64,000 nt of DNA from Roseobacter sp. HKCCD6576-2. GTDB lineage: Bacteria > Pseudomonadota > Alphaproteobacteria > Rhodobacterales > Rhodobacteraceae. Position numbers and translations under genes: made by a program. Each line of letters starts with the position of its first letter. Positions within the stretch are counted from its first letter, which is position 1. Positions 32,921 to 60,205 of the stretch are shown here, one piece after another. A model generated the notes under the pieces. That model saw only the letters and a program-made list of their open reading frames with translations, was not told the DNA's origin and searched no databases. Where the stretch lies: NCBI RefSeq assembly GCF_013179285.1, contig NZ_WVNW01000002.1:310001-374000 (forward strand), read 5' to 3'.

Positions 32921-33676
32921 TTATTGCGGCGCTTGGGGCGCTGCATTTGCATGGCGCGCGCGCGCCGCAAGGACCGATTGCGCGAGGTCCTTGGTATAGG
33001 CTTCCAGTTCGGTCAGGCCCTCCGCCGCCATTGCGCCCTTCTGGTTTTCGATCGCATCGGTGATCTGCGTGTGCAGCGCCACGATCGCCTCGCGGGAGCG
33101 GGCGGTGAAGGTGATCATGTTCATCAATGGCTGCATTGCCTCAACCGCACCGGCCAGTTGATAGCTCAGCACCGGGTTACCCGCGCCGTCGACAAGCGCC
33201 CGGTGAAACGCCACATCGGAGGCGCAGAACGCCTCATCCGTCAGGCCGGGCTGCGATTGACGGTGAATCTCTGCCCGCATGGTCGCCAAATGGTCGGCAC
33301 TGCGGCGCTCAGCTGACAGGGGCGCGCAGGCGCGTTCCAAAGCAAACCGCGCCTCGCACGCCGTGTCAAAGCTCACGGAATTCATGCTGAGCAGCAGGGT
33401 CGAGGTGGTGATCTGCTGGCTATAGGCATCCTCAAAGGAGAGCCTGTTGACAAAGGCGCCGCCAAACGCGCCGCGTTGGGTTCGGATCAGCGACTGCGCC
33501 GCCAGCCGCTTGAGGGCCTCGCGCACGGTGGGTCGCGAGACATCGAACTGCTCGGCCAATTCGGCCTCGGACGGTAGGCGTGCATCGACGATCAGATCGC
33601 CAGCGATAATTGCGTCGCGGATCGCTTTGGCGATCTGGGCCGAAAGATCGGCGGAGCTGCTTGGATCAATTTTCAT
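32921..33676 (-). CDS. GntR/FadR-family regulator next to the DMSP operon
   Basis: 251 residues. An N-terminal GntR winged helix (about 10-75; LPSEAELAEQFDVSRPTVREAL is the recognition part, cited as its ends LPSEAEL and PTVREAL) is followed by an FCD ligand-binding domain. It diverges from the DUF2182-DUF1326-DinB-dmdA-acuI operon, and a strong inverted repeat lies just upstream of its start. Regulators of this class near dmdA-acuI in roseobacters respond to DMSP breakdown products; here a ligand such as acrylyl-CoA is plausible but unproven. Confidence 0.85.
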   Translation of the reverse strand: MKIDPSSSADLSAQIAKAIRDAIIAGDLIVDARLPSEAELAEQFDVSRPTVREALKRLAAQSLIRTQRGAFGGAFVNRLSFEDAYSQQITTSTLLLSMNSVSFDTACEARFALERACAPLSAERRSADHLATMRAEIHRQSQPGLTDEAFCASDVAFHRALVDGAGNPVLSYQLAGAVEAMQPLMNMITFTARSREAIVALHTQITDAIENQKGAMAAEGLTELEAYTKDLAQSVLAARARHANAAPQAPQ

Positions 33677-33735
33677 TTGTCAGACATTTAAAAGTCTGAC
33701 ATTTAAAACGCAATCCCTGAGTCGAGGAGGGCACA
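33677..33735. promoter_or_regulatory. Divergent promoter with near-perfect operator palindrome
   Basis: TGTCAGAC (33678-33685) and GTCTGACA (33694-33701) form a perfect 8-bp inverted repeat around ATTTAAAA; the same unit also reads as a direct repeat of TCTGACATTTAAAA type. It lies directly upstream of the GntR start and about 35 bases before the DUF2182 start, so the regulator probably represses both directions. Confidence 0.7.
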
Positions 33736-34494
33736 GTGATTTCATCCCGGATCAGAGCCATTGGGGCGGCGCATTGGTTGGCGCTGTTTGCGGTGATCCT
33801 GTTGGCTTGGGGCGCGCTTTACGCGATGGCATTGCCGGAGGAACTGCGCGCGACGAGCCGGATTTATGGCGCGGAGTTTTGGGCGGCGCTTTGCACGCTG
33901 ACGCCGGATGCAGCCGGGTTTCTGCGGATCACCGCAATGTGGATGTTGATGTCGGCGGCGATGATGGCGCCGACCGCTCTGCCAGCCTTCGCGACCTATG
34001 ACGATCTGAGCCACAGTGCCGAGACCGATTTTGCCGCTTTGGTTGGCGGCTATCTGACGATTTGGCTGGGCTTCTCGCTTGGCGCGGCGGGGCTGCAATT
34101 CGCGCTGTATCAGAGCGATTTGGTGAGCGCTTTCGGCGACAGCCGCTCGACGGCACTTTCGGCGGTGCTTCTCGCGATGGCGGGGGCGTATCAGTTTACA
34201 CCCCTCAAAGAGGCCTGCCTGTCGAAATGCCGCCAACCGCTCAGCTTCTTCATGGCGCATTGGGAGGAGGGCGCGTTCCGCAACGGTCTGCGCCTCGGCG
34301 CGGTTTGCCTTGGCTGTTGTTGGGCGCTGATGCTGCTTGGGTTTGTCGGTGGCGTGATGAACCTCGCGTTCATGGGGCTCGCCACGATCATCATGGTTGT
34401 CGAAAAGCTGCCCGATCTGGGCCGCTGGATCACCAAGCCGCTTGGCTTGGCATTGCTTGCGGCGTCGGCCTGGCTGGCGCTTGGTTTGGGTTGA
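33736..34494 (+). CDS. DUF2182 integral membrane protein
   Basis: 252 residues from a GTG with GAGGAGGG upstream. About six membrane helices are visible. The motif WMLMSAAMMAPTALP and a cytoplasmic or periplasmic KEACLSKCRQP with two cysteines match DUF2182, a putative metal-binding membrane family. It often neighbours DUF1326, as here. The His/Cys-bearing loop suggests metal binding. Function is unknown. Confidence 0.85.
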   Translation: MISSRIRAIGAAHWLALFAVILLAWGALYAMALPEELRATSRIYGAEFWAALCTLTPDAAGFLRITAMWMLMSAAMMAPTALPAFATYDDLSHSAETDFAALVGGYLTIWLGFSLGAAGLQFALYQSDLVSAFGDSRSTALSAVLLAMAGAYQFTPLKEACLSKCRQPLSFFMAHWEEGAFRNGLRLGAVCLGCCWALMLLGFVGGVMNLAFMGLATIIMVVEKLPDLGRWITKPLGLALLAASAWLALGLG

Positions 34495-34506
34495 GAAAAG
34501 GGAGAG

Positions 34507-35160
34507 ATGGAAATGGCATTGGATGGCGGAGCGATCGGAACGGTTCCTTGGGCGATCAAGGGCGAGTTGATCCTGAACTGCAATTGCACGGTGTTTTGCC
34601 CCTGCGTGGTGTCGCTTGGCAAACACGCGCCGACGGAAGGCTATTGCCAAGCCTGGTCCGGCATCCGGATCGATGAAGGCTTCTATGGTGATGAAGATAT
34701 TGGTGGGCTGAATGTCGGCCTGCTGCTGGAGATTCCCGGTCTGATGGCGCGCGGTGGCTGGAAAGCGGCGGCCTATATCGACGAGCGCGCCAATGAGGCG
34801 GCCTATGACGGGTTGGTCAATATTTTCTCGGGCGCGGCGCGGGGCACAACCGGACTCTTCAAGGTCCTGGTGTCCGAGTTTCTCGGGGCCGAGCGCGCCC
34901 CGGTGATCTTTGAGACCGAAGGCAAAGCGCGGCGTCTGATGGTCGGTAAGAAGATCCAAGGCGAAGTGGTGCCGGTTGGCGGCAAGGAGCCGGGTGAGGA
35001 TATCGTGGTGACCAATACCGAATATTGGATGGGCCCCGATATTACCGTGGCCACCGCCACCAAAGGCCGGGTTCGCGCCTTTGGCCGGGTTTGGGATTTC
35101 GACGGTCGCTCTGCCGAGATTTGCCAGATCGATTGGGTCGGGCCGCAGGGCAAGGCATGA
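34507..35160 (+). CDS. DUF1326 protein
   Basis: 217 residues. A Cys-rich N-terminal segment LNCNCTVFCPCVVSLG (about 22-37) could bind metal, and the rest is predicted beta-rich. DUF1326 proteins usually lie next to DUF2182 proteins; they are thought to form a unit, but no activity is established to my knowledge. The stop overlaps the next ATG (ATGA). Presence in the dmdA operon suggests a link to DMSP use or to the sulfur product. Confidence 0.85.
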   Translation: MEMALDGGAIGTVPWAIKGELILNCNCTVFCPCVVSLGKHAPTEGYCQAWSGIRIDEGFYGDEDIGGLNVGLLLEIPGLMARGGWKAAAYIDERANEAAYDGLVNIFSGAARGTTGLFKVLVSEFLGAERAPVIFETEGKARRLMVGKKIQGEVVPVGGKEPGEDIVVTNTEYWMGPDITVATATKGRVRAFGRVWDFDGRSAEICQIDWVGPQGKA

Positions 35161-35690
35161 TCACGCCGGGCTGGTGTCAGACCATGGCGCGTTACAACGC
35201 CTGGCAGAACCAGTGGATGTTCCAGGCCGCCGACGCGTTATCTGAAGAGGAGCGGCGGCGCGACCGGGGTGCGTTCTTCGGCAGCATCCATGGCACACTC
35301 GCCCATCTCATGTGGGGGGACCATCTATGGATCGCCCGGTTTGACGGCGGCCCAGGCCCGAACCCGCCGAAGGCGGACAGCAGCGGGGCCATTGATTGGT
35401 CGGCGCTCTTTGACTGGCCCGAAATGATGGCCGAGCGGCCGCAATTGGATGCGCGGATCGCGGCTTGGACATGGTCCATCGACCAGAGTGATCTCGAGGG
35501 TGCATTTACCTGGGCCTCCAGCGCCAGCCCGGAGCCCCTCACGCGGCCCCGGGCGCTCTGCGTGATGCAGATGTTCAACCATCAGACCCACCACCGGGGC
35601 CAAGTCCATGCGATGCTGACCGCCGCAGGCGCCAAAACCAGCGTTACCGACTTGCCCTTCATGCCGGAGGACATACCGGAATGGCACTGA
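35157..35690 (+). CDS. DinB-family putative metalloenzyme
   Basis: 177 residues from the ATG at 35157, which overlaps the DUF1326 stop. The four-helix-bundle DinB/YfiT fold is indicated by HGTLAHLMWGDHLWIARF (His ligand near residue 47) and FNHQTHHRGQVHAML (His pair near 140). DinB proteins bind divalent metals and include thiol-dependent transferases. Its stop codon overlaps the start of dmdA by ten bases, so it is tightly coupled with DMSP demethylation; a role in handling the thiol product is a reasonable guess. Confidence 0.8.
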   Translation: MITPGWCQTMARYNAWQNQWMFQAADALSEEERRRDRGAFFGSIHGTLAHLMWGDHLWIARFDGGPGPNPPKADSSGAIDWSALFDWPEMMAERPQLDARIAAWTWSIDQSDLEGAFTWASSASPEPLTRPRALCVMQMFNHQTHHRGQVHAMLTAAGAKTSVTDLPFMPEDIPEWH

Positions 35691-36784
35691 TCTCCCCCTC
35701 CCGCCGCATCCGCCGGACGCCGTTTTCCGATGGGGTCGAAGCAGCCGGCGTGAAAGCCTATTCGGTCTATAACCGGATGCTTCTGCCCTCGGTTTTTGAA
35801 AGCCCCGAGGAAGATTATCGCCATTTGAAACAGGCGGTACAGGTCTGGGATGTGGCCTGCGAGCGGCAGGTGGAACTCCGCGGCCCGGATGCGGCCCGGC
35901 TGATGCAGATGCTGACCCCGCGCGATCTGCGGGGGATGTTGCCCGGGCAGTGCTATTACGTGCCGATTGTCGACGAAACAGGCGGGATGCTGAACGACCC
36001 CGTGGCGGTGAAGCTGGCCGAGGATCGCTGGTGGATTTCCATCGCTGATAGCGACCTCTTGCTTTGGGTCAAAGGCGTGGCGCAAGGGTTCCGGCTGGAT
36101 GTGCTGGTTGATGAGCCGGACGTCTCGCCGCTGGCCATTCAAGGGCCGCTGGCGGACGATCTGGCGGCGCGGGTCTTTGGCGATGGCGTCCGGGATATCC
36201 GGTTCTTCCGCTTCGGCTATTTTGCGTTTCAGGGGCGGGACTTGGTTGTCGCGCGCTCCGGCTACTCGAAACAGGGCGGGTTCGAGATCTATGTCGAGGG
36301 CGACGATATCGGCATGCCGCTTTGGAATGCGCTGATGGAGGCCGGGCGCGATTTGGATGTGCGCGCAGGCTGCCCCAACACGATCGAGCGGATCGAGGGC
36401 GGTCTCTTCAGCTATGGCAACGACATGACAGCGGCCAACACCCCCCATGAATGCGGGCTTGGCCGGTTCTGCGATACACTGACGGCGGTCGGATGCATTG
36501 GCCGGGATGCGTTGCTGCGGGTGGCGCGCGAAGGCCCGGTGCAGCAGATCCGCCCGATTGCAATCGCGGGTGACGCCTTGCCGGCCTGCGACCGGCCTTG
36601 GCCGCTGATGGCTGGCGACAAGCGCGTGGGGCAGGTGACCTCCGCCGCGCAATCGCCCGATTTCGGCGAAGGCGTGGCTATCGGGATGGTTCGGATGACC
36701 CATTGGGATCCGGGCACCGAATTGAGCGTTGTGACCCAAGACGGACCCCGCGCGGCGGTGGTGCGCGAGAATTTCTGGATTTGA
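35681..36784 (+). CDS. dmdA: Dimethylsulfoniopropionate demethylase
   Basis: 367 residues, GCV-T/aminomethyltransferase fold. Typical DmdA segments are AGVKAYSVYNRMLLPSVF (about 22-39), LTPRDLRGMLPGQCYYVP, GYSKQGGFEIYVEGDDIGMP and VRENFWI at the end, close to the roseobacter enzymes as I recall them. DmdA moves a methyl from DMSP to tetrahydrofolate, giving methylmercaptopropionate. acuI follows 15 bases later, the known dmdA-acuI pair, which supports DmdA over ordinary GcvT. GGAGG lies 14 bases before the start. Confidence 0.93.
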   Translation: MALISPSRRIRRTPFSDGVEAAGVKAYSVYNRMLLPSVFESPEEDYRHLKQAVQVWDVACERQVELRGPDAARLMQMLTPRDLRGMLPGQCYYVPIVDETGGMLNDPVAVKLAEDRWWISIADSDLLLWVKGVAQGFRLDVLVDEPDVSPLAIQGPLADDLAARVFGDGVRDIRFFRFGYFAFQGRDLVVARSGYSKQGGFEIYVEGDDIGMPLWNALMEAGRDLDVRAGCPNTIERIEGGLFSYGNDMTAANTPHECGLGRFCDTLTAVGCIGRDALLRVAREGPVQQIRPIAIAGDALPACDRPWPLMAGDKRVGQVTSAAQSPDFGEGVAIGMVRMTHWDPGTELSVVTQDGPRAAVVRENFWI

Positions 36785-36799
36785 ACAAGGAGAGACCCG

Positions 36800-37789
36800 A
36801 TGCGGGCATTGATCGTGGAGAAGGACGAAGAGAGCGGTAAGACCAGTGCTGCGGTGCAGGAGGTCGACGAGAGCCGCTTGCCTGAGGGCGATGTGACCGT
36901 CGCGGTGGAGTTCTCGACCCTGAACTACAAAGACGGGCTGTGCATTGGGCCGGGGGGCGGCTTGGTCCGCACCTATCCGCATGTGCCGGGGATCGATTTC
37001 GCGGGCACTGTCGAGGCCTCCGATGACCCGCGCTACAAGCCCGGCGACAAGGTTGTGCTCACCGGCTGGCGTGTGGGCGAGGTGCATTGGGGCGGCTATG
37101 CCGAAAAGGCCCGGGTGAAGGCCGATTGGCTGGTGCCCCTGCCGGACGGTTTGACGACGCGCCAAGCGATGGCTGTCGGGACCGCCGGGTTTACCGCGAT
37201 GTTGGCGGTGATGGCGCTTGAAGATCACGGGTTAACACCCGAGAAAGGCGAAGTTTTGGTCACGGGGGCGGCTGGCGGTGTTGGCTCGGTGGCCACCGCG
37301 ATCCTGGCCAATCTGGGGTATCAAGTGGCCGGGGTGACCGGACGGCCGGAGCAGGAAGATTACCTCAAATCGCTCGGCGCGGCGCGGATTGTGGCGCGCG
37401 ATGAGATCAATGAGACGGTGAAACGCCCGCTTGAGGCCGAGACCTGGGCGGGCTGCGTCGATGCGGTTGGCGGCGCGATGTTGGCGCGGGTCTTGGGACA
37501 GGTGAAATATGGCGGGTCTGTTGCCGCCGTTGGTCTGGCGGGCGGGGCCGGATTGCCCGCGACCGTGATCCCATTCTTGCTGCGCGGCGTGAACCTCTTG
37601 GGGATCGATTCCGTCATGCAGCCCTATGATAATCGGCTCCGCGCCTGGGAGCGGATCGCCCGCGATCTGCCGATGGAGAAGCTTGAGGCGATGATCCATC
37701 CGGCCGGTCTGGCTGATTTGCCCGAACTTGGTGCGGCGATCTTGAAGGGCGGTGTGCGGGGCCGCGTTGTGGTGGATGTGACGGCCTGA
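36800..37789 (+). CDS. acuI: NADPH-dependent acrylyl-CoA reductase
   Basis: 329 residues of the quinone oxidoreductase/zinc-free MDR superfamily, YhdH/AcuI type. The NADPH-binding GAAGGVGSVATAILANLGY is at about 154-172 and the FSTLNYKDGL and VPGIDFAGTV motifs are at the N-terminal end. AcuI reduces the toxic acrylyl-CoA from DMSP cleavage or demethylation to propionyl-CoA. It is co-transcribed with dmdA (AAGGAG ahead of the ATG). A GC-rich hairpin follows. Confidence 0.95.
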   Translation: MRALIVEKDEESGKTSAAVQEVDESRLPEGDVTVAVEFSTLNYKDGLCIGPGGGLVRTYPHVPGIDFAGTVEASDDPRYKPGDKVVLTGWRVGEVHWGGYAEKARVKADWLVPLPDGLTTRQAMAVGTAGFTAMLAVMALEDHGLTPEKGEVLVTGAAGGVGSVATAILANLGYQVAGVTGRPEQEDYLKSLGAARIVARDEINETVKRPLEAETWAGCVDAVGGAMLARVLGQVKYGGSVAAVGLAGGAGLPATVIPFLLRGVNLLGIDSVMQPYDNRLRAWERIARDLPMEKLEAMIHPAGLADLPELGAAILKGGVRGRVVVDVTA

Positions 37790-37807
37790 CCCGTTTGGAA
37801 GATGAAG

Positions 37808-37835
37808 ACGGGGCAGGGTGGTTGACCCGCCCCGT
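37808..37835 (+). terminator. Possible terminator hairpin after acuI
   Basis: ACGGGGC (37808-37814) pairs with GCCCCGT (37829-37835), enclosing GGGT/ACCC. There is no U tract, so termination may be rho-assisted. Confidence 0.5.
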
Positions 37836-37882
37836 TGCGAGCTAGTTTGGGGCAGACAGACCCTCACGCGGCAAAGGCACAG

Positions 37883-48189: not shown

Positions 48190-48756
48190 TGAATGCCAAA
48201 CGGAACTGTTGTCGAAACATCTATTTCCTACAGCACAGACGCGAGGCTCTCTTATCTCTTCCGTATTGCAGCCTCGGCCAGTCGCAGCACTTATTTGGTT
48301 GGGCTCACCATCGACAACGCCACCGGGGTCGTCGACCAGCTTCAGTTGCCGCGTTTCAAAACCTATATGAACTATGGCAACTACATCGGCATCTGGACTA
48401 GGAAAGGATCGGTATTATCAACGCCGACTACAACGATCAGGGCATCCTTCGCTGTCGCGAACAACAGGTTCGTTGTGCCGGTTGACGGGTGTACTTGTTG
48501 GGCGCGACGCTGTTCGACAAGGTTAACGCCGCGACGTGGATGGGTCGATGTTTCGTGGTGAGCCGCATGACCAAGACGTGCGGATCGCGCGGTAAGATCC
48601 GCAGCGCAAATATCTTATAGGCGATTGCACTCTTGCTACAGGGCCTTGGTGTCGCTGACATGGGACAATACTGTCGAGAATAGAGGTATTTCAGGGTCGC
48701 GGATGGCTACTTCGCCGTTGACTATAGCTCCGTCTGCGGCGTGAAGATCAGCTAAC
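48190..48756 (+). pseudogene. Decayed phage-tail-like (DUF2793-type C-terminal domain) gene
   Basis: A damaged coding stretch is recognisable across frames. One frame gives TTTIRASFAVANNRFVVPVDG; after a frameshift near 48490 it goes on as YLLGATLFDKVNAATWMGR, then CGSRGKIRSA; later segments after stop codons read AIALLLQGLGV and YFRVADGYFAVDYSSVCGVKIS at the stop (about 48755). This order, ending in an aromatic GVKI, matches the C-terminal domain of DUF2793/phage-tail proteins as I remember them. At least two frameshift or stop events are present, so it is non-functional. No gene is visible in 47955-48189. Confidence 0.5.
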
Positions 48757-50200
48757 CTTTTGCCCCCTGTCTTCTAGCATAAACATCTTCATAGCGGATG
48801 ATGTCATCTTCACCGAGATAGCTGCCGGTTTGCACCTCAATGAGGGTGAGGGGCACTTTGCCAGGATTCTCCATGCGGTGGAGCGCGCCGAGGGGAATGT
48901 AGACGCTTTGGTTTTCGGTCACGAGCTTCACCTCATCATCAACTGTTACCTTGGCCGTACCCTCCACCACAATCCAGTGCTCGGCGCGGTGGTGGTGGCT
49001 TTGGAGGCTGAGGCTGGCGCCCGGATGGACCACGATGCGTTTAACTTGGAACCGGGAGCCCGTGACGATGCTCTCGTACCAACCCCAAGGGCGATAGTCG
49101 CGCGGTAGCGTCGTGGCCTGAGAAACGCCTTTCGCCTTAAGCGCAGCAACCGTCTTTTTCACGTCCTGTGCACGGTCTTTGTGTGCGACCAGTACCGCAT
49201 CGGGCATGGCCACCGCTACGATGTTGGTCAAACCGATCCCGACTAGCTGTTGTGCTTCGCTGGTGGCATGGAGGAGCGTGGCATCGCAATCAAGCGCCGT
49301 CGCTGGGCCGGTCGTGACAACGGTCTTGTCGTCCGCATCTCCTTCGCGCCAGACCGCATCCCAATCTCCCAAGTCCGACCAGGCACCGCCATAGGGGACA
49401 ACTGTGAGATTTTCGGCGCGTTCCATCACGGCGTAGTCGATGGAGATATCGGGCAACGCATCCCAAGGCTCGACCTTCAAACGAGTGAAGGACAAGTCCT
49501 TTTCGGCGCCTTCTTGAGCGGCGCGACAGGCGGATAGGACCTCTGGCGCATTTTCAGCAAAGGCCTTTAGGATTGCCGTGTTGGTGAAGAGAAAGATGCC
49601 TGCGTTCCAAAGGTGCATCCCGCCAGCCAACAATGTGTCGGCTTTGGCTTGATCGGGTTTTTCGACAAAGCTTTTGAGTGGCTGAGGAATCGGCGAGAAG
49701 TCGGCTAGGGGCCGCTCTGTGAGTTCAAGCCAGCCATATCCTGTTTCCGCCCTGTCTGGGCGGATGCCGAACGTGACAAGCCGACCATCCAAAGCTGCGG
49801 TCGTTGCGGTCTGGACGGTGTCGTGGAACGCTTTGCCGTCGGGGATTACGTGATCAGACGGGGCGACGAGCATCAATGCGCCCGAATCCTTGGCCTCAAG
49901 CGCAAGGGCTGCAGCGCAGATCGCGGGCGCCGTGTTTTTGGCCGCTGGCTCGATTAAGATATCTGACGCCACCATTTCCAACGCAGCCAGTTGCTCAATT
50001 ACAATGAAGCGAAAGTCACCACCGGTTACGATCATTGGCGGCGCGAATTCGGGACCAGTTAGCCGTTTCGCCGACGCCTGAAAAAGGCTCTCATCGCTGG
50101 TCAGTTTTACGAATTGTTTCGGGTAGGATTTTCGCGAGAGAGGCCAAAGGCGCGTGCCCGAGCCGCCGCAAAGGAGTACCGGGTGGATCTGCTGGGTCAT
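48752..50200 (-). CDS. manC: Mannose-1-phosphate guanylyltransferase/mannose-6-phosphate isomerase
   Basis: 482 residues, bifunctional type. The nucleotidyltransferase domain opens CGGSGTRLWPLSRKSYPKQF (about 12-31); the C-terminal cupin isomerase domain (about 360-478) has VKRIVVHPGASLSLQSHHHR and GTAKVTVDDE. It makes GDP-mannose for the surface polysaccharide. It is the last gene of the cluster, after a 350-base gap. Confidence 0.95.
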   Translation of the reverse strand: MTQQIHPVLLCGGSGTRLWPLSRKSYPKQFVKLTSDESLFQASAKRLTGPEFAPPMIVTGGDFRFIVIEQLAALEMVASDILIEPAAKNTAPAICAAALALEAKDSGALMLVAPSDHVIPDGKAFHDTVQTATTAALDGRLVTFGIRPDRAETGYGWLELTERPLADFSPIPQPLKSFVEKPDQAKADTLLAGGMHLWNAGIFLFTNTAILKAFAENAPEVLSACRAAQEGAEKDLSFTRLKVEPWDALPDISIDYAVMERAENLTVVPYGGAWSDLGDWDAVWREGDADDKTVVTTGPATALDCDATLLHATSEAQQLVGIGLTNIVAVAMPDAVLVAHKDRAQDVKKTVAALKAKGVSQATTLPRDYRPWGWYESIVTGSRFQVKRIVVHPGASLSLQSHHHRAEHWIVVEGTAKVTVDDEVKLVTENQSVYIPLGALHRMENPGKVPLTLIEVQTGSYLGEDDIIRYEDVYARRQGAKG

Positions 50201-50553
50201 CTAGGTCATTTTGCTCCAAAACTGTGGGCATTCTCCAAAAACCAGGGGTAGTTATCAGAGTAGTTATCTTCTGGGGTACTGCCTGCCGACCAAGGGGGGG
50301 TGAGCCGACTTACATTCATCTGTTTGCGTTGCGTGTCACCGGGCTTGCTGAGGTTGGTTATGATCTGGTCCGCGCAATCCGAGGGGCTGGCGACTACTAG
50401 GGCGAGTTCTAGGTGTTTGCGCAACTGGCTTCCGAGGGAAGAGGTTTGCTTGACGCTGAGTTCAGTTCCAACCGGCGCTTGACTACGCATGGAAACCCAA
50501 TGACTATTCCAAAGATAGCTGATGGCAAACTCCGTTCTACAGGACCAGCGAGC
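50201..50553. other. Gap in the polysaccharide cluster, no clear gene
   Basis: A minus-strand open frame of 94 codons (50206-50490) is present but has no recognisable product or good ribosome site. Plus-strand frames are also short. It may be a decayed gene; nothing else is seen. Confidence 0.4.
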
Positions 50554-51819
50554 TTATTGCGTTACAAGCCTTGAAAGCTCGTCATGCCACTGATCCGTCA
50601 CCGACTCTCGAGAGAAATTTTTCTGATAAACAGCATGAGAATGCTCTTGAAGTTTGATGAGTGCAGACGGTTCTTTCGACAACCGGCGCAACTCAAGGGC
50701 AATACTTTCCGAACTACCAGAGTTCAAAACCCAGCCGATGTTAAATCTCTCTATCCAATAGCCAATCGCACTATTCTTTGGGCCCGAATAAAGAACTGGC
50801 CGTCCAATCGCCAAACTTCCAAAGAATTTTGACGGAACAGCAATTCCAGCCCATTCATCACGCAGCGAGGCCAAATGGATATCTGCTGCGCCCAGACGCT
50901 TTTCTAGCTCTTCTATCGACGCAAAGCTAGCAAAGCTAATATTTGTATCTTCTTCAAGCACTGCAGCCTTCAGTTCATCGACCCTATTACCCCGTACGGC
51001 AAAACAAAAATGGATTTCGGGCACGTCCCGTAGTGATCTGGCAAGTGTCAAAAACTCGCTGTAGCTGTGAGCTTCGCCAAAATTTCCAGAGTACAGCACA
51101 GAAAGGGCCGCATTTCCAAACAGTTCCTGCCTAGTTCGTAGATCAGGCTCGACCCTCTTCTGAGGTTCAACCAAGGCCCACGGGATGAGCTCAGTTTCAG
51201 CAGCACCGTGGTCGTAGCGGCGTAAGAGAAAACGCATACAAGGCCCAAGATCTGCAATCATGCTACAACGCTTATAGCCTGCAAGCATTATCTTCTTCAC
51301 AATCCGAGTTGCGACGCTTGTCTCCAACACCATGCCGCTTACGACTGCGGCCTCAGGATGTAGGTCAAAACACCAGTGAACGATAGGCGTTCTTGGCGAG
51401 AAGAACTTGAGCGGCACTGCTGCTGCAACAGCAAACATTGGATCCGTGCCGATAACAATAACATCTGGTCGTCTCGATTTCCTGCGAAGCCCTAGCTTTG
51501 ACCAGGCGACGATCATCCAAGCCGAGTTCAGCAACCGCCCGGAGAATGACCTTTGTTGAAACCGAGGCCGCCAGATACGGTTATATTGAACCCCGTTGTG
51601 AACATCCGAAGGCCCGTAGGTATGCCGCTCATCACGGCAGCCACGGTTGCATGGTAGAGCTTCGACATCCCACCCCCTAGCCGCCAGGTCTTCTGCGAAG
51701 CCATCTAGATGACGCGCGCTAACCACATCATCTGGATACATGTAATGATATAGTATCGTTATTCGGGGCTTCCGCTCTCCAAGTCGTGTCGTAAAGGGGT
51801 TCGCCTTATCATTTCGCAT
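50554..51819 (-). CDS. Glycosyltransferase, GT4/WbuB-like
   Basis: 421 residues with a GT-B fold. The N-terminal half has ITILYHYMYPDDVVSARHLDG; the C-terminal half has LYSGNFGEAHSYSEFLTLA and the region ASLRDEWAGIAVPSKFFG that contacts the nucleotide sugar. It adds a sugar to a lipid-linked glycan in the cytoplasm. It lies 20 bases after the epimerase gene on the same strand. Confidence 0.88.
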   Translation of the reverse strand: MRNDKANPFTTRLGERKPRITILYHYMYPDDVVSARHLDGFAEDLAARGWDVEALPCNRGCRDERHTYGPSDVHNGVQYNRIWRPRFQQRSFSGRLLNSAWMIVAWSKLGLRRKSRRPDVIVIGTDPMFAVAAAVPLKFFSPRTPIVHWCFDLHPEAAVVSGMVLETSVATRIVKKIMLAGYKRCSMIADLGPCMRFLLRRYDHGAAETELIPWALVEPQKRVEPDLRTRQELFGNAALSVLYSGNFGEAHSYSEFLTLARSLRDVPEIHFCFAVRGNRVDELKAAVLEEDTNISFASFASIEELEKRLGAADIHLASLRDEWAGIAVPSKFFGSLAIGRPVLYSGPKNSAIGYWIERFNIGWVLNSGSSESIALELRRLSKEPSALIKLQEHSHAVYQKNFSRESVTDQWHDELSRLVTQ

Positions 51820-51838
51820 CTGGCTATATCCACCCAGT

Positions 51839-52816
51839 TTAAACTCGGTTGTGGCGCCGACTTACTTGGGCGCTAATCCAATCGTAGGTCTCATTGATTC
51901 CGGCGCGCAGCGTCTGAGTTGGCCGCCAGTTGAGCCTTTCCAAAATCAACCGATTGTCGGAGTTCCGACCCCGTACGCCCTCTGGCCCGGAGATGTTCCG
52001 GATGCTTAGATCCTTCCCAGAGATATCGATGACCATTTGCGCAAGCGCGTTAATCGAAATCATCTCATCAGACCCGATATTAACTGGGCCTTCAAATTTC
52101 GAGCGGAGCAAACGAATCGATCCTTCAATGCACTCGTCAATGAAAAGGAAGGACCGCGTCTGCAGGCCATCCCCCCAAATCTCTATTGCGCCCCCATCTC
52201 GGGCCGAAGCAACCTTTCGACAGATTGCTGCAGGCGCTTTTTCCTTGCCGCCTTCCCACGTCCCCTTTGGGCCAAAGATGTTATGATACCTAGCGACTCG
52301 GCATTCCATCCCGAAGTTTCGATTGTAGGCTAGGTACAGTCTTTCGGAAAACAGTTTCTCCCAACCATATTCGCTATCTGGATTCGCAGGGTAGGCTGAG
52401 TCCTCCGCACAGTTTGGATTGTCTGGGTCTTCCTGGTTGTAGGCAGGATACATGCAGGCAGACGACGAATAGAACACGCGTTTGATGCTGCGCTTATGAC
52501 AAGCATTGAGCACATTCAAATTGATTGTTGCCGAGTTGTGCATGATGTCGGCGTCGTTCTCGCCAGTAAAAATGTACCCAGCGCCACCCATATCGGCCGC
52601 AAGCTGATAAACTTCATCGAATTTTCTGTCCACCACGTGCGCGACTAAGCTTTGATCTCGCAAATCGCCTATGACGAAATCGTCAGCGTCGCTTTCGTGA
52701 AATTTGTTGAACTCTAGATCAACGCCCCGGACCCAAAACCCCTCTTTCTTAAGGCGGGTGACAAGATGGCCTCCGATAAAGCCACCCGCGCCCAAGATAA
52801 GTGCCATCTTTGCCAT
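51839..52816 (-). CDS. NAD-dependent epimerase, GDP-mannose 3,5-epimerase-like
   Basis: 325 residues from the ATG at 52816 (AAAGGAG upstream); an upstream in-frame start at 52948 lacks support. Extended SDR: GAGGFIGG (9-16) and YGWEK in the active site. The stretch QLAADMGGAGYIFTGENDADI is characteristic of GDP-mannose 3,5-epimerases. It would turn GDP-mannose from ManC into GDP-L-galactose. The two genes lie in one cluster. Confidence 0.8.
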   Translation of the reverse strand: MAKMALILGAGGFIGGHLVTRLKKEGFWVRGVDLEFNKFHESDADDFVIGDLRDQSLVAHVVDRKFDEVYQLAADMGGAGYIFTGENDADIMHNSATINLNVLNACHKRSIKRVFYSSSACMYPAYNQEDPDNPNCAEDSAYPANPDSEYGWEKLFSERLYLAYNRNFGMECRVARYHNIFGPKGTWEGGKEKAPAAICRKVASARDGGAIEIWGDGLQTRSFLFIDECIEGSIRLLRSKFEGPVNIGSDEMISINALAQMVIDISGKDLSIRNISGPEGVRGRNSDNRLILERLNWRPTQTLRAGINETYDWISAQVSRRHNRV

Positions 52817-53245
52817 GTGTTTTCTCCTTTGAGGGCGGGCAAGTTTAGTTTTCATAGCGTACCGTATGGCACGCTGCGACTTCGTTTGTCGTGATGTATC
52901 CCGCTTCTGCTTGCTTAGAAAGCCCATGGTTTGGGCTTGCTTCAGCACCTAACAAAAGCGCGGTTTCTTGGATCAGAACTCGTAGCCAGAACAGGTCGGC
53001 TGTTGCGATGCAGCCAGCGGAGATGAGCAACTCGCCGCATCTACCTGATCCAATCGCAGCTCGATCCTGGACTTGGAAAGAACGGCTCTAGCTCCTGCAT
53101 CTGCCGTCCGTCAGCCAGGCCAGAAATGCTCGCTCATCATACTCCCTCTGTTCAGGATCTCGAATCATGTGGTTGGGCGAGCCTCAAGCAGAAGAGTTAT
53201 GGGGTATGATTCTCAGCAGACGTTGCATTCAATAAGCTGAATAAC
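52817..53245. other. Gap in the polysaccharide cluster, nothing recognised
   Basis: About 430 bases between the epimerase and the next glycosyltransferase. Only short overlapping frames without ribosome sites are present. It may hold a promoter for the epimerase-GT-manC part. Confidence 0.4.
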
Positions 53246-54391
53246 TCACGTTTCGCTTGATCTATCTAACTTTCCACGCAAAAGAATATCCTTCATTTTC
53301 AGGTCAAAAACCTCGGCTGAGAAACGCTTATTGGAAGCGATTGCAGCATCGATGTTCTTGTTTTTGAATTTTGAAGGATCGGACCTTTTTTCATGGTATA
53401 GTCTCTCGATATCCTTAGCAATTTCCGGTACGTTATTGATCGGTACGATATCGGCGGGGTAATCGCCTACGGTTTCGCGTAAGCTGGCTCGGTCGGAGAC
53501 GATGACCCGCTTTCCAGAACACATCGCTTCAATAACCGCGAGCGGCTGCATTTCAGAGGTGTAGCGCGAGGGCAGCGCAACGACGTCACCGTCTCGTATT
53601 GCGCCCACGGCGCAAGCATGCGGCACCATTCCGAGATAAGAGAACCAGTCACACCCTTCGTATTGTCGCATCTTGCTGCGAACATCGACTTCAAGCATTT
53701 CGTGATCGCTTTGCACTTTGCCGAAGCACAATAAGTCGATCTGGTGGCCCTGGCGGACAAGCACTTCGACCGCAGACACGACGTCGAAGAAGCCTTTACT
53801 TGCCATCACATTTGAATTCCAAACAACCTGAAGGCTGGACGGGTCTTGGTTTGCGGCTGATTGAGCGGCTTCTGCAGCGACAAAGAAATTCTCACACAGA
53901 TGCGCGATCTTCACTCGGTCCTTCATCCGCTCACTAAGGTGATGGCTTGGGAAGATGACCTCGCAGTTACGATAAATTCGCCGCGCTAGGCCTGATAGCG
54001 GTCCGCTGGATAACAAGGACTCAAAATCAGACCCGTGGCAATGAACAATGACCCGCTTGCCGAGATAAACTGTCAACAAACCAGGCAGGTCGCGGAAAAA
54101 ACCCGGGGTGGTGCGGGAGCAAACCACATAGACCGCTCCAACACGCGACGTGCACAATGCCCAAAACAGTCGAAAACAAGCCAGCAACCAAGCCAAAATG
54201 CTTTTCGCAGCGCCTCCACTGGGAAAGACGCATGGCACGCTTTCACCGACATCCGGCAGCACGTGGTTAACGACCCTTCGCGTAACGACTGCCTGTCCAT
54301 TCTCTGTTGTAAACTCGCACGAAAAAACAGCAAAGTTTATTGTCTCAAGCTGTCGCGCGACCCGATCCTTCTTTACATGTTTCGACGTCAA
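53246..54391 (-). CDS. Glycosyltransferase family 4
   Basis: 381 residues, GT-B fold. Motifs seen: VIVHCHGSDFESLLSSGPLS in the first domain and RYTSEMQPLAVIEAMCSGKR in the second, where the acidic/EX7E-like donor site lies. It acts on an undecaprenyl-linked oligosaccharide. Its start overlaps the polymerase stop by four bases. Confidence 0.88.
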   Translation of the reverse strand: MTSKHVKKDRVARQLETINFAVFSCEFTTENGQAVVTRRVVNHVLPDVGESVPCVFPSGGAAKSILAWLLACFRLFWALCTSRVGAVYVVCSRTTPGFFRDLPGLLTVYLGKRVIVHCHGSDFESLLSSGPLSGLARRIYRNCEVIFPSHHLSERMKDRVKIAHLCENFFVAAEAAQSAANQDPSSLQVVWNSNVMASKGFFDVVSAVEVLVRQGHQIDLLCFGKVQSDHEMLEVDVRSKMRQYEGCDWFSYLGMVPHACAVGAIRDGDVVALPSRYTSEMQPLAVIEAMCSGKRVIVSDRASLRETVGDYPADIVPINNVPEIAKDIERLYHEKRSDPSKFKNKNIDAAIASNKRFSAEVFDLKMKDILLRGKLDRSSET

Positions 54392-55656
54392 GTTTTGGTC
54401 TGATCCCGAGGTAAAAGTGACCTGAATGAATTCACTGCCAACCCAATGAAAATCGCATAATACAGTGGTCTTACCGCATGTCTTAATCCGTACTGAACAA
54501 AAAAGATTGATGCTAACAAACTTAGCCCCAGAATCGCGATCATAACCACGCGCTGTTGCCGAGCTACTGCCTGCAGGTACTGTAGATTCACTATGGAAAG
54601 AAGAAATCCAAAAAAAGTCGCCGCAAATGCACCAGCCATATGTTCTGCACCATTAAGTGTTCCAATAGCGTTTACCGGAAAAAAAGTTCCCACTCTCAAT
54701 AAGTCTGTATATTCATGCCTCCAGACAAGTGCACCCGGGAGCGGGTTGAGCGAGGCGAATATTATATGGGAATCTATGGCGATATTGCTCTTCGCATAGT
54801 GAGCCATGGGAAATCCCATAAACAAGTTGTTGAGGACATATTGAAAAAGATTGGAGATTGGAAGAGCGTCAAGGTTATCAAAATTGAAAACATTAAAAAA
54901 ATGCGCTAAGCCCTGTTGATCCATGTTCCTCATGAGCAACGAGAAAGCCAACAAACAGCCGGAGGTGACGGTCAAGCTAACATAGTTTTTGACACTTGGT
55001 GTATCCGATAGGTACTTTCCCAAGAAGAATAGGGCGGGTGCTACTGCTGCTCGCCTAGAACCGTGAGCGAGCAAGAGGACAATGATGATTATTAAGAGGA
55101 CTAAACCTAATGTCGGCCTGTCTCTTGCGACAACACCTGTCAGAAAGGCGGATATTACAACCAATAGCATTAGAAGGGTTCTGATTTGTGTGTTTTCTCC
55201 TTCTATAATGTATGATTGACGGGAGATTAGCGCATCTTGATAGTAGAGTGCAAAGAGTAACGCAATCAAAACAACAATGACCGAAATTAGGTCGGTGTTA
55301 ATCCTTCTGGTGCGTTGGCTGTAGCCACCTCTAGTAAATTTGATTTTTGGGGCGGCATTGTATGATGCAGAAAATATAATATGGCCTAGAGCGATGTAGC
55401 ATAACCAAACCAAGTTCGAGTTGAAGGTCCCTAGAATTTCGTCGGAAAACCTATTATCGATATATGGATATCTGTGAAAATCGCCAATGTCGGACCAGTA
55501 ATAAAACTGTGAAGCGGCAAGGTTAAAGAGAATAAAGATGACCACAAAATTAGACATCGGCGTGAACTTTGCATTGCGGGATAGAGAAGTCTTATTTGCA
55601 ATGGAAATCAATACCCATAACAAGGTGGTTAGGATAAGGAGTTGTATTACGCTCAT
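54388..55656 (-). CDS. O-antigen/oligosaccharide repeat-unit polymerase (Wzy-like)
   Basis: 422 residues from the ATG at 55656, with about eleven to twelve membrane helices and a large periplasmic loop near 330-360. Sequence motifs are weak, as usual for Wzy. Together with the Wzx-like gene it defines a Wzx/Wzy-dependent polysaccharide. The coding sequence is strikingly AT-rich compared with the housekeeping genes, suggesting acquisition from elsewhere. Confidence 0.8.
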   Translation of the reverse strand: MSVIQLLILTTLLWVLISIANKTSLSRNAKFTPMSNFVVIFILFNLAASQFYYWSDIGDFHRYPYIDNRFSDEILGTFNSNLVWLCYIALGHIIFSASYNAAPKIKFTRGGYSQRTRRINTDLISVIVVLIALLFALYYQDALISRQSYIIEGENTQIRTLLMLLVVISAFLTGVVARDRPTLGLVLLIIIIVLLLAHGSRRAAVAPALFFLGKYLSDTPSVKNYVSLTVTSGCLLAFSLLMRNMDQQGLAHFFNVFNFDNLDALPISNLFQYVLNNLFMGFPMAHYAKSNIAIDSHIIFASLNPLPGALVWRHEYTDLLRVGTFFPVNAIGTLNGAEHMAGAFAATFFGFLLSIVNLQYLQAVARQQRVVMIAILGLSLLASIFFVQYGLRHAVRPLYYAIFIGLAVNSFRSLLPRDQTKT

Positions 55657-55756
55657 TGAATTAGTCTTCCATAGCGTCAATGACGATCAGCGGAAACGAG
55701 AGATACTCTATTGAAAGGTCCGGTTGAAGGCTATATCGCAATTCGAGGTGCATTGC

Positions 55757-56992
55757 CTAAGCCCGTCGTTTCGCAGTTTTAAGCAAGCCAACTGCCAGCA
55801 CCATAACCATGACGCTCATGCTTGCCAGATACATGATTGTGGCATTCATTAAATCCAGCGCATGGGCGTTCATCAGCTCGACGCTAACAACGGTGATCAC
55901 CATGCCTATGTAGCCAAACATGGCAAATTGCAAATCACCCATCAACCGCAAGTAAACCCGCATGATAATTGAGGCAAAAACCAGAAACTGATATACTGAG
56001 TAGATTATTGCAGCCGTCCACAACGGCGTCGTGCCGACCATGTGGCAGTACACAAGATAAATCGGCAAGCATAGCAAGATCAACATGCTTGGCAGGACGT
56101 ATGACTCCAAGTCTAGTGCAGATGACAGAGTGAAGCGGGGATTTGTTTCGCCGCGATGAGCGCGGGCCAGAACGATCTCCTGATATTGGAAGTAGATGCT
56201 GAGAAACCCGAACGACGACAGCAAAACTCGCAGGGTGCCCAGCGCCTCGGCACCGGAATGATGCTGGACCAAGAGTTGAACCAAATTGCCGGAAAGCCAC
56301 TGGAACCATATCCCGAACGTCATCCATCGGGAAAATCGCAAGAAGTCGACAGCAAGAGCTATATCCGGAAGAAGCGTGCGCTCAGGACGGCGAAAGACGG
56401 TGTGCGCAATGGCTACAAAAAAGGAAAGTGAATAGGTAAGCAAGAAAGCGGTGTAAGAAACGACACCGATGGCGGCTGGTATCGATACTGCTACCAATAC
56501 CACTAGGGGGATTAACGTTGGGTACTTCGCGAGCCCTAGATGCAAGACAACCCGTCGTAACGTTAAAAAGGCATTGTGGGAGACAATGTAGACAAAACTC
56601 AGAAACATAGATTGGTTCGAAAAGTTCAAAACGATATGATCAAACGCTAGAATAGAACAAGCCAGCGGAACGAAGGAGAAGAGCGATATGACCATCACCT
56701 TCTGAGCAAAGCGATAATCTGAGATAGACCAAGGCTTGCTGGTCGCTGGCACGATTATGAAATTGTACGCGAAGAGATACACAAAAGACGAGTAAATCAA
56801 AATCAGGGAGAACTCGCCTAAAGTCGAGACGCCATAGAGAACACCGATCACAAAGGCTGACAAGAAGTTCAGCGCGCTAGCAAAAGCGGTGTCAACGATC
56901 GCGCCATCGGCGCGCATCAACCGGTCTATCTGCAAGGTCTTCCGGAGGGCGCCCAACTTAGTTGTGAGAGCTTGCTTATTGGCTGAGTTCAT
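55757..56992 (-). CDS. Wzx-like polysaccharide flippase (MATE-type membrane protein)
   Basis: 411 residues with twelve predicted membrane helices. It opens with a loop DRLMRADGAIVDTAFASALN and then a helix-rich protein like O-antigen translocases. It would flip lipid-linked repeat units across the inner membrane before Wzy. It is AT-rich like its neighbours. Confidence 0.75.
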   Translation of the reverse strand: MNSANKQALTTKLGALRKTLQIDRLMRADGAIVDTAFASALNFLSAFVIGVLYGVSTLGEFSLILIYSSFVYLFAYNFIIVPATSKPWSISDYRFAQKVMVISLFSFVPLACSILAFDHIVLNFSNQSMFLSFVYIVSHNAFLTLRRVVLHLGLAKYPTLIPLVVLVAVSIPAAIGVVSYTAFLLTYSLSFFVAIAHTVFRRPERTLLPDIALAVDFLRFSRWMTFGIWFQWLSGNLVQLLVQHHSGAEALGTLRVLLSSFGFLSIYFQYQEIVLARAHRGETNPRFTLSSALDLESYVLPSMLILLCLPIYLVYCHMVGTTPLWTAAIIYSVYQFLVFASIIMRVYLRLMGDLQFAMFGYIGMVITVVSVELMNAHALDLMNATIMYLASMSVMVMVLAVGLLKTAKRRA

Positions 56993-57010
56993 AAGAGCTA
57001 AACCAATCGC

Positions 57011-57895
57011 TCAACGCCCTTTTTCAATCTTCTCGACAAAATAGTCACTGACTGAGCCAGGACTCGCAACACCAGTTTTGGGAACAACTGCGAGACCGCC
57101 CAGGGCAACGATCAGCAGTTTTTTCAGTGCAGCCCATGTGAAGCTTCCATGGACGACGTAGCGATGCGTCGGTCGATAGAGGTGGTACTTGTTGGCAAAA
57201 TCAATGACCGCCTGAGTGTCTGATGGGTGTACGTTCAGCGTGCATCCAACGCTCTCTGGGCGCATTCGTATCAACTGGCTTGCGTAGTTCCACATCGTCT
57301 TTCGTCGCGAAATGCGTTGTGTTATCTTGCTGCGCAGCTCTTCGGTATCCGTCCAAAACGGTACGGTTTGCGCCTGAGGCAAGGTTACTCCGAGGAAGTC
57401 CAAGACATCGGCCACGACGGAAGGGTCCAGCCCGTGCCGATCTAAATCTGGTTGATATCTGACTGGAAGATGCCCCTTGTAAGCTGCGTAGTGAAAAAAC
57501 GTGTATGAGATTGACACGCGATCCGGCAGGCGTCGCCAAATGCCGTCGACTTCGCAGGTATCGAGTAGTCGCTCGCCTTCGACAATGACCTGCCCACGAA
57601 AGATGATGCCCGTGAAATACTCAAGAACCAGGAACTTTCGGTCGCCCCCCCCCGGAAAATATAGCATTACATAGAGATCCCGCCGCTTAGGAATAATCTG
57701 TATCACCCAGACATCGTCGCGGCGGATGGCCCTATAGTAGTGATAGATCGTGTGCAGGTCGGATTGCTTAATCAAAAGATCAATGTCGCCTGTCAGTGTC
57801 TCGGGATAGCCCTCAGAGTTTCTTAAGAAGGCGTAGTTCACTTGCAAATCCGAAAGGTGGGTCACGTGAGACTCAAGAAATGTACTCGGTGTCAT
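57011..57895 (-). CDS. Nucleotidyltransferase-like protein of a capsule locus, unknown substrate
   Basis: 294 residues. The motif TGDIDLLI (about 36-43) suggests a Pol-beta-like nucleotidyltransferase site (G-D-x-D). The C-terminal half is basic and helical. It is next to a P-loop kinase gene of the thymidylate-kinase type. Such kinase/NTase pairs and fusions occur in some polysaccharide loci, but I know of no defined substrate. It could prime or modify a sugar or lipid carrier. Confidence 0.6.
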   Translation of the reverse strand: MTPSTFLESHVTHLSDLQVNYAFLRNSEGYPETLTGDIDLLIKQSDLHTIYHYYRAIRRDDVWVIQIIPKRRDLYVMLYFPGGGDRKFLVLEYFTGIIFRGQVIVEGERLLDTCEVDGIWRRLPDRVSISYTFFHYAAYKGHLPVRYQPDLDRHGLDPSVVADVLDFLGVTLPQAQTVPFWTDTEELRSKITQRISRRKTMWNYASQLIRMRPESVGCTLNVHPSDTQAVIDFANKYHLYRPTHRYVVHGSFTWAALKKLLIVALGGLAVVPKTGVASPGSVSDYFVEKIEKGR

Positions 57896-57905
57896 CTGAG
57901 GGCGC

Positions 57906-58511
57906 TCACAGCCCGGTATGGCAGCTGGTGATTTGGCCGATCCGGCTTGCTATGCGAGCTTGGCTTTGGTTGACGGAGTCGCGAGTTGTGTCGATGGTCA
58001 AAACCTTTTCCTTGGCCCGAGCAAGCGCAGCCGCATACCGACGGTTCAGTGCATCGATTTCGGACGCCGGGAGTTCTTGCTTGCGGTTTGCCATCGTCTC
58101 AGCGTCCCCGGTCAGAACGATGTTTAGGTCGGCGTACCAATCCCTCAGAAGGCCCCGAAGCCGTTCAACAAGCCAATGGTCCAATCCATAGCGATCTGGG
58201 TGAACATACACATCCGCAAGGCTTCGTTCCAAGATTACCACTGTCGGTCCTGCCATCAGCTTGTGCCAGATGGCAAAGGAGTAGAACTCTGCCAGAAACA
58301 ACCCTATTTTTGCAACCTGCAAATATACTTTCCGTTTAGGTACTTCGCCGGGCCGATCGACGTAACGACGCTGCTTCTCGGTGTTGCTCTTGGGTGCAAG
58401 ATTACCTGGCCGCGAATGAAAATGCACAAACCTATTGTCGGTGACTTCTGCGACCGCGTTGATGATCGTACTTTTTCCGCTTCCGTCCGCGCCGTTAAGT
58501 GTGATGATCAT
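57906..58511 (-). CDS. Thymidylate-kinase-like P-loop kinase of a capsule locus
   Basis: 201 residues. Walker A is NGADGSGKSTII (about 6-17), and the region VILERSLADVYVHPDRYGLD resembles the DR(Y/H) substrate motif of dNMP kinases. It is not expected to be the housekeeping Tmk because of its place inside a polysaccharide cluster and its divergent sequence. It sits ten bases before the NTase-like gene and is coupled to the glycosyltransferase at its upstream side by an overlap of four bases. Confidence 0.65.
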   Translation of the reverse strand: MIITLNGADGSGKSTIINAVAEVTDNRFVHFHSRPGNLAPKSNTEKQRRYVDRPGEVPKRKVYLQVAKIGLFLAEFYSFAIWHKLMAGPTVVILERSLADVYVHPDRYGLDHWLVERLRGLLRDWYADLNIVLTGDAETMANRKQELPASEIDALNRRYAAALARAKEKVLTIDTTRDSVNQSQARIASRIGQITSCHTGL

Positions 58512-59449: not shown

Positions 59450-59450
59450 A

Positions 59451-60203
59451 CTAGTGAGACTTCCTGCCCTCAAAGTACAACGAACTCTGTTTGTAGGGTG
59501 AACCATCAGCCTTAGCATCAAGCCCTATTCTGTCGTTCCAGTTGGGTATCCAACTCTGGTCATATGACCAAACAGTTGTTTCATGAAAGCCCGCCGCGTT
59601 CATTGAGGCTTGAAGGCTGAACCGATCATACATCCATTGGTGGGTTTCACCCCGCTTCCGAGCGTCACCCAAAACGAGGTTCTCGACAATGCGCCTTATG
59701 CCCTTCTGGCGGGCGGTTCCGTCGGCTTCACGCCGAACGGATTGCTCAATCAGCGGCGCGATATAGTCCGAGTGGTTTGTGATCAGCTTCGGATCTGCCT
59801 CGCACAGCTCAATATGTTCGAGATAAGCACGAGCCAACAGCTCAAAATCGGGCACAACTATTCTTAGAATGCCCCCAGGCTTCAGCACTCTGTGAGTCTC
59901 AGCCAGAAACTGCTGTGCAATTGGTCGGTCGAGATGTTCCAGAACATGGGAGTGATAGACCACATCTACAGATTGATCTGCGTAGGGAATGCCCTTTGCA
60001 AGATTATATACCAGAATGTTTTTGGGAACTGCCCGCAGGCGTTGAAGGCGGGCTTCATCGAGAAAAATAGGTGCAAGTGCTCGAACAAGCCTACTGCGAG
60101 AGAGCCACAAATAAGGTGACCAATCAATGTTTTGAACTTCTGGTCGATCACTCGTCTTAAGCCCGCAGCCTAAGTTCAAGATAATGCATTGTCGCGCGTC
60201 CAT
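59451..60203 (-). CDS. SAM-dependent methyltransferase (Methyltransf_11 type)
   Basis: 250 residues from the ATG at 60203. Motif I is ILNLGCGLKTSDRPEVQNID (about 8-27) and the Rossmann-type core goes on with VDVVYHSHVLEHLDRP and VLKPGGILRIVVPDFE. It may methylate a sugar or cap the polysaccharide chain. It follows another methyltransferase gene with a two-base gap. Confidence 0.82.
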   Translation of the reverse strand: MDARQCIILNLGCGLKTSDRPEVQNIDWSPYLWLSRSRLVRALAPIFLDEARLQRLRAVPKNILVYNLAKGIPYADQSVDVVYHSHVLEHLDRPIAQQFLAETHRVLKPGGILRIVVPDFELLARAYLEHIELCEADPKLITNHSDYIAPLIEQSVRREADGTARQKGIRRIVENLVLGDARKRGETHQWMYDRFSLQASMNAAGFHETTVWSYDQSWIPNWNDRIGLDAKADGSPYKQSSLYFEGRKSH

Positions 60204-60205
60204 GC

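Follow-up and report, generated by a model that had tools for sequence, protein, structure and literature searches.

Copper-type genes in a dimethylsulfoniopropionate-breakdown operon of Roseobacter suggest a copper part in methanethiol handling

In a 64,000-nt stretch of DNA from Roseobacter sp. HKCCD6576-2 (the window; coordinates are positions within it), the genes for dimethylsulfoniopropionate (DMSP) breakdown, dmdA and acuI, stand in one operon with two copper-type genes of the PpoB2 (DUF2182) and DUF1326 families, next to a gene for a GntR-type regulator. The occurrence of the two copper-type genes under the same switch as dmdA and acuI, which is shared by many marine bacteria, suggests that copper plays a part in the handling of the methanethiol that these cells release. 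Of this system, dmdA-acuI was known before (available part of PMC3338564); the copper pair and its regulon come in addition. DMSP demethylation sets the share of marine sulfur that becomes methanethiol rather than dimethyl sulfide. If real, such a pair together with an operator common to several genes would link the methanethiol branch to the copper supply and would give a regulon.

The co-directional unit spans 33736-37789 and consists of five genes on the + strand. In order, they encode PpoB2/DUF2182 of a copper-chaperone family (33736-34494; PF09948, 7.4e-62, 209.1 bits against a gathering score of 28.7), DUF1326 (34507-35160; PF07040, 2.3e-48, 165.1 bits against 25), a DinB-family protein (35157-35690; PF05163, 8.7e-24, 84.8 bits against 23), the DMSP demethylase DmdA (35681-36784; NF009133, 672 bits over residues 1-367, above the equivalog cut-off of 410), and the acryloyl-CoA reductase AcuI (36800-37789; NF051456, 447.8 bits, above the equivalog cut-off of 440). 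PF09948, the former DUF2182, is now named PpoB2, "Copper chaperone", in Pfam. The junctions are a 12-nt gap, a 4-nt overlap, a 10-nt overlap, and a 15-nt gap; with no spacing above 15 nt, the layout on which the initial annotation had proposed that the five genes form one unit was borne out. The start codon of the PpoB2 gene is GTG, preceded by GAGGAGGG, and the start of the DinB gene (ATG) was assigned by eye, the open reading frame in the list opening further upstream. The motifs KEACLSKC, NCNCTVFCPC, and HHRGQVH, which had been pointed out in the first three products, are all present. The regulator, a GntR-family protein of the FCD (FadR) type, is encoded at 32921-33676 on the - strand (PF00392, 1.9e-18; PF07729, 1.8e-18). 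The regulator gene adjoins the operon as had been proposed, but it is divergent, facing the operon from outside the five-gene unit.

To examine the conservation of this arrangement, genome contigs were scanned with the DUF1326 of the window, and the best 80 of 494 relatives (82-91% identical to it) were analyzed. Gene presence was scored by tblastn with the window's proteins, which divergent copies may escape, and 19 of the 80 loci were dropped from this count owing to too little flanking DNA. The 61 complete loci contained PpoB2 in 61 cases, AcuI in 60, GntR in 54, DmdA in 41, and DinB in 27. AcuI is the most constant partner, and DmdA and DinB are optional. The initial placing of the first three genes in a DMSP module is therefore sustained for PpoB2 and DUF1326 but not for DinB, and dmdA is a frequent partner but a looser one than acuI.

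Because the 80 loci had been chosen by similarity, a second sample was drawn from the family, with a single genome for each of 149 genera. DUF1326 was present in 79 of these genomes and PpoB2 in 82; DmdA exceeded its cut-off in 64 and was found at E 1e-60 in 78, and AcuI was found at E 1e-70 in 133 and exceeded its own cut-off in 15. PpoB2 lay upstream of 72 of the 94 DUF1326 copies and downstream of 19, and was lacking at 3. Among the 72 upstream-order copies, 42 stood with both DmdA and AcuI, 6 with DmdA, 16 with AcuI, and 8 with neither, so that 64 of the 72 pairs were beside dmdA and/or acuI. Two of the eight exceptions stop at a contig edge, and one has AcuI across GntR. None of the 19 reverse-order pairs (PpoB2 downstream) was near dmdA or acuI. 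For the reciprocal count, 70 over-cut-off DmdA copies out of 117 DmdA rows were used, and a same-strand DUF1326 gene was found within 4 kb of 48 of them, whereas about 0.2 of the 94 DUF1326 copies would be expected that near DmdA by chance (estimated from 8 kb in 4 Mb). Chance is therefore excluded for this neighborhood. Some of the remaining 22 DmdA copies stand with AcuI but without the PpoB2-DUF1326 pair. These results indicate that the DUF genes and dmdA-acuI are a recurrent module across the family. The synteny comparison that the initial annotation had proposed thus revealed a repeated arrangement, and a restriction to this strain only, which it had named as the contrary outcome, does not occur.

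The module was also found outside the family. A class scan detected DUF1326 in 37 of 289 genomes, and 38 stretches outside the family were examined. Five loci from three other alphaproteobacterial families, with DUF1326 67-74% identical to that of the window, contained PpoB2-DUF1326-DmdA-ligase (L237, which stops at a contig edge), a partial PpoB2 match followed by DUF1326-ligase-SBP56 (L238, with SBP56 as the second gene after DUF1326), or PpoB2-DUF1326-ligase (L240, L247, and L249). No DMSP gene was found around L225 and L245, whose DUF1326 is 56-57% identical to that of the window, and the other outside-family copies were at most 35% identical or closer to the reverse-order type. In a phylum scan, DUF1326 matches were obtained in 41 of 398 genomes. 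Eight genomes of one other family (L292-L299) carry PpoB2-DUF1326 at 53-56% identity in a non-DMSP setting, with genes for a CDP-alcohol phosphatidyltransferase, an MDR dehydrogenase, and an ABC transporter as neighbors in L293. In a DUF1326 tree of 122 rows, all 44 DMSP-context rows fell inside one 60-row part, the support for which (83/90) is not firm; the tree required 7 label changes versus 36 in shuffles.

PpoB2 has a conserved set of residues consisting of M68, M72, M76, M77, C161xxxC165, C191, C194, C195, M199, M208, and E223. Each of these was kept in at least 145 of 155 upstream-order sequences and at least 43 of 46 reverse-order sequences, an alignment in which some genomes are counted twice. 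The Cys/Met set hardly differs between the two gene orders and is hence family-wide; a DMSP-specific PpoB2 motif was ruled out, and the earlier use of the motif as a sign of a DMSP role is not supported. In DUF1326, C25, C27, C31, C33, and C47 did not vary among 49 sequences having 80-91% identity to that of the window. Judging from the residues, the PpoB2 Cys/Met set and the five Cys of DUF1326 would suit Cu(I). The role on the metal side of demethylation that had been proposed for these genes fits a PpoB2 family that includes a copper-transfer member (excerpts of PMC2855505), although the motif itself is not particular to DMSP loci. In addition, a CusF gene adjoins one reverse-order pair, which was counted for the copper reading. 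No solved relatives of DUF1326 and DinB were found by sequence.

Between the start of the GntR gene and that of the PpoB2 gene there are two FadR-type operator-like copies, TTTGTCAGACATT at 33676-33688 and the looser AAAGTCTGACATT at 33691-33703. A sigma-70 consensus promoter was not found at 33600-33800. When 13 of the 80 related loci, in which the GntR or PpoB2 match was missing, were dropped, NNNGTCNGACNNN was present in the GntR-PpoB2 region of 66 of the 67 loci having both genes. The strict form of this conserved palindrome, WTGTCWGACAW ([AT]TGTC[AT]GACA[AT]), occurred at 83 sites in 8,583 bp of GntR/PpoB2 gaps of the 80 loci and at 1 site in the 1,147,412 bp outside the gaps. In three genomes in which GntR adjoins dmdA or DinB-dmdA and the pair is missing, the gap contained the site in L172 and L173 but not in L175. 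The five outside-family loci had neither the operator-like site nor a GntR match.

A regulon search with the pattern WWTGTCWGACAWW in 33 module-bearing genomes yielded 68 sites, compared with 10 for a control pattern. By coordinates, 36 sites were in the operon gap (32 genomes) and 32 were unlinked, all of which were examined. Seven of the unlinked sites were directly before genes of acyl-CoA/methanethiol chemistry, namely six acyl-CoA ligase genes and, in Roseovarius gahaiensis (L379), an SBP56 gene. These seven come from six genomes with two same-genus pairs and represent about five independent cases. The ligases of L380, L381, and L399 are of the DmdB type, with 816.5, 815.7, and 800.2 bits just under the NF005426 cut-off of 822. 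The L412 ligase of Pontivivens insulae is of the neighboring PRK06018 subfamily (778.8, cut-off 766) and scored 706.9 with the DmdB model, and the L391 and L392 ligases (790.7 and 806.5, cut-off 677) belong to the PRK08162 subfamily, which also sits in the module operon of other families. The same operator before DmdB-type and other acyl-CoA ligase genes and one SBP56 gene points to the methylmercaptopropionate (MMPA)/methanethiol branch, and the putative operator would be a simple handle for finding further pathway genes.

In the genome of HKCCD6576-2 itself, the operon copy at 33676-33688 was the only WWTGTCWGACAWW site, and a search for the double site gave, besides this locus, a single G+C-rich match. 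None of five further WTGTCWGACAW sites in this genome was beside a recognized pathway gene when read by eye. A perfect TTGTCAGACAA site beyond the window (C12:410757-410767, L186) is located 36 bp before a gene that we take to be RraA-like and that is followed by a presumed TRAP-type binding protein gene; this site may belong to another FadR-type regulator.

The SBP56 family is relevant because it contains the copper-dependent methanethiol oxidase MtoX (PMC5739008, in part), and the human SBP56-type protein SELENBP1 requires copper for methanethiol oxidation (accessible text of PMC10362175). An SBP56 gene is located behind GntR on the same strand in Ruegeria intermedia, R. marisrubri, R. lacuscaerulensis, and L324 (loci L042, L058, L060, and L324; L060 is R. 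lacuscaerulensis). Furthermore, SBP56 follows dmdA-acuI-ligase in the same gene row in L026 and follows dmdA in L325. The residues HH, H, W, W, and H, which excerpts of PMC10936201 and PMC5739008 name as copper ligands or tryptophan tryptophylquinone residues of MtoX, were kept in 8 of 8 SBP56 proteins near the module, dmdA, or PpoB2. SBP56 was present in 38 of 71 module genomes versus 10 of 78 others of the 149-genome sample (p 9e-8), excluding three weak matches (G023, G031, and G075) that later proved to be of the true MtoX clade. True MtoX proteins in three other genomes scored 698.6-754.7 bits on the MtoX equivalog NF052453. In L190 (267-2865), a divergent PpoB2 (PF09948, 1.6e-25) was observed one gene from SBP56, in a row; the gene between them is presumably ferredoxin-like, and we take a gene on the opposite strand to be formaldehyde-dehydrogenase-like.

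R. lacuscaerulensis is a case in point. In the available part of PMC7157515 this species is reported to be without mtoX, its labelling suggests that methanethiol is converted to sulfide by another mechanism, and two SBP56-family genes are said to be possible converters of methanethiol. One SBP56 match was found in its genome here. Its dmdA operon carries the module (L060) with the SBP56 gene behind the regulator, and these genes are candidates for the methanethiol-to-sulfide step left open in those excerpts.

We tentatively favor the reading that the PpoB2-DUF1326 pair serves a copper enzyme that consumes methanethiol, within an operon controlled by the GntR/FadR-type regulator. The regulator would be a repressor that is released as DMSP products build up. 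The likeliest effector would be acrylate or acryloyl-CoA because in R. pomeroyi dmdA-acuI responded to acrylate as an inducer but not to MMPA (PMC3338564, in part). PpoB2 and DUF1326 would then pass Cu(I) to the methanethiol-consuming enzyme, and the pair may supply or buffer copper for methanethiol handling. Where SBP56 genes are linked to the module or share its operator, as in three Ruegeria species, Roseovarius gahaiensis, and a few other genomes, the likely client would be this SBP56 of the SELENBP1/MtoX superfamily. In HKCCD6576-2, the pair might serve another client or only prevent a strong thiol ligand from depleting the available copper, and DinB would be an accessory. A more specific version, in which PpoB2-DUF1326 (in some strains with DinB) is a dedicated copper-delivery module that forms, with SELENBP1-like SBP56, a second, MtoX-independent route of methanethiol oxidation in one GntR regulon, strains without SBP56 using another copper enzyme, appears doubtful. 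If true, this second route would explain the formation of sulfide from methanethiol in R. lacuscaerulensis without mtoX.

Several observations weigh against a methanethiol-consuming copper client. Six linked SBP56 proteins reached 103.7-156.1 bits on NF052453, below its cut-off of 650. No SBP56 (PF05694) match of any clade was obtained at E 1e-3 in the genome of HKCCD6576-2, which rules out a client of the SBP56 family there, MtoX included, and SBP56 was not found in 20 of 36 other module-bearing genomes of named records. Among dmdA-positive genomes, SBP56 occurred in 34 of 53 with the module and 5 of 11 without it (p 0.31), giving no clear link. For these reasons SBP56 cannot be the sole client. 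DmdA was not detected in 20 of the 61 complete loci, AcuI being the steadiest neighbor, and in 18 of 71 genomes with the module no DmdA exceeds its cut-off. The DUF1326 model was poor (predicted local distance difference test score, pLDDT, 65) and gave no confident match to a solved fold. A scan of 120 neighbors of low-identity DUF1326 copies, tried as a guide to the client and rejected, had nothing related to copper in its 25 most frequent families. Finally, 25 of the 32 unlinked operator-like sites were not before recognized pathway genes, to be set beside the 10 sites of the control pattern. Eleven of the 25 are inside called genes, 11 are before genes not recognized as belonging to the pathway, and 3 have no called gene nearby. 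Two of the second group of genes had no match in a family search at E 1e-100, and four of its sites coincide with a gene start (for example ATG-TCT-GAC), in L400 with that of what is presumably an acyl-CoA dehydrogenase-like gene.

The explanation ranked next after the copper-for-methanethiol reading, and rather unlikely in our judgment, is that the pair protects copper from the thiol and has no dedicated client: methanethiol would tie up or reduce copper, which PpoB2 and DUF1326 would sequester and return for cytochrome oxidase and the like. Such protection accounts for the module genomes without SBP56, including that of HKCCD6576-2, and for the co-regulation with ligases of the methanethiol-releasing branch. 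However, it leaves the SBP56 genes that are linked to the module or share its operator unexplained, and the 18 module genomes without over-cut-off DmdA count against it as well. It is also conceivable, but unlikely, that the module is kept because of acuI and serves acryloyl-CoA/acyl-CoA ligase chemistry instead of methanethiol. The prevalence of AcuI over DmdA in the complete loci, the response of R. pomeroyi dmdA-acuI to acrylate and not MMPA, and the prediction of acyl-CoA ligases for six of the seven pathway genes behind unlinked operators all favor this view, but AcuI was not seen in the five outside-family loci where the module stands with DmdA or a ligase (L237 ending at a contig edge), and one operator-like site precedes SBP56.

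Neutral inheritance of an old gene order in one family, without any shared function, is quite improbable. Although the DMSP-context DUF1326 copies group in a single part of the tree and 11 of 64 dmdA-positive genomes lack the PpoB2-DUF1326 pair, 64 of 72 copies in the sample of 149 genera retain the order despite the variable presence of DinB, DmdA, and the ligase, the module occurs in three other families, and the operator-like site is kept in the gap. Least probable of these alternatives is that DUF1326 is itself a pathway enzyme and PpoB2 merely its metal supplier. DUF1326 is more conserved than PpoB2 in the same 80 loci (82-91% identical), and fold hints lead to acetoacetate decarboxylase-like barrels; these hints are weak, with a template modeling score of about 0.3 on the model of pLDDT 65, and the five invariant Cys resemble a metal site.

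The operon resembles three known systems in part. In the Roseobacter dmdA-acuI operon (Todd et al. 2012, PMC3338564), dmdA is likewise directly followed by acuI, but the available part of the operon account names no PpoB2, DUF1326, or DinB, nor an operator or regulator of dmdA. According to the same excerpts, a cloned 2.4-kb fragment of R. pomeroyi held the promoter as well as dmdA and acuI; by our own arithmetic, extra genes would not fit between this promoter and dmdA. In the PpoB1-PpoB2 tyrosinase operon of Marinomonas mediterranea (PMC2855505, in part), a PpoB2-family gene also stands beside the gene served; the client there is tyrosinase, whereas the partners here are DUF1326 and DMSP genes. 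The mtoX-SCO1-mauG operon places a copper-accessory gene beside the gene for the SBP56-family copper-dependent methanethiol oxidase (accessible part of PMC5739008). Its accessory family is SCO1/SenC, unlike PpoB2-DUF1326, and, unlike in that operon, the module-linked SBP56 proteins score under the cut-off of the MtoX equivalog and HKCCD6576-2 has none. In the literature searched, which left out most subscription journals, no description of the PpoB2-DUF1326 module or its regulon was found, nor a match for DmdR with dmdA or for DMSP demethylation with a GntR repressor; DUF2182, DUF1326, PF07040, PF09948, and COG5588 gave no match, and COG5486 appeared solely in PMC2855505.

Genes behind the module differ among loci. 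Cysteine desulfurase-like genes cluster with it in 11 of 80 related loci, usually at a distance of several genes after acuI or DUF1326; the copy in L169 (7009-8391) scored 271 bits with TIGR01976, below the cut-off of 352, and no such gene follows acuI in the window. In L170 (8353-9993), a gene that we take to encode a BCCT-like transporter is behind acuI, as in some other loci. A transporter gene of this kind following acuI is described for one Phaeobacter strain in the available part of PMC3338564. Downstream of acuI in the window there is a G+C-rich hairpin without a T run (37807-37836, + strand; RNA fold of 37790-37860, -28.9 kcal/mol, z -2.8), which is a possible end of the unit, and position 37835, given earlier as the end of the region, is merely the first possible start of the next open reading frame (photolyase). 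Elsewhere in the window, two - strand genes at 1874-4668 presumably encode a Mu-type transposase and its ATPase partner, and we take a - strand run at 48752-61060 to be a polysaccharide-synthesis-like cluster with glycosyltransferases, an epimerase, and a flippase-like protein.

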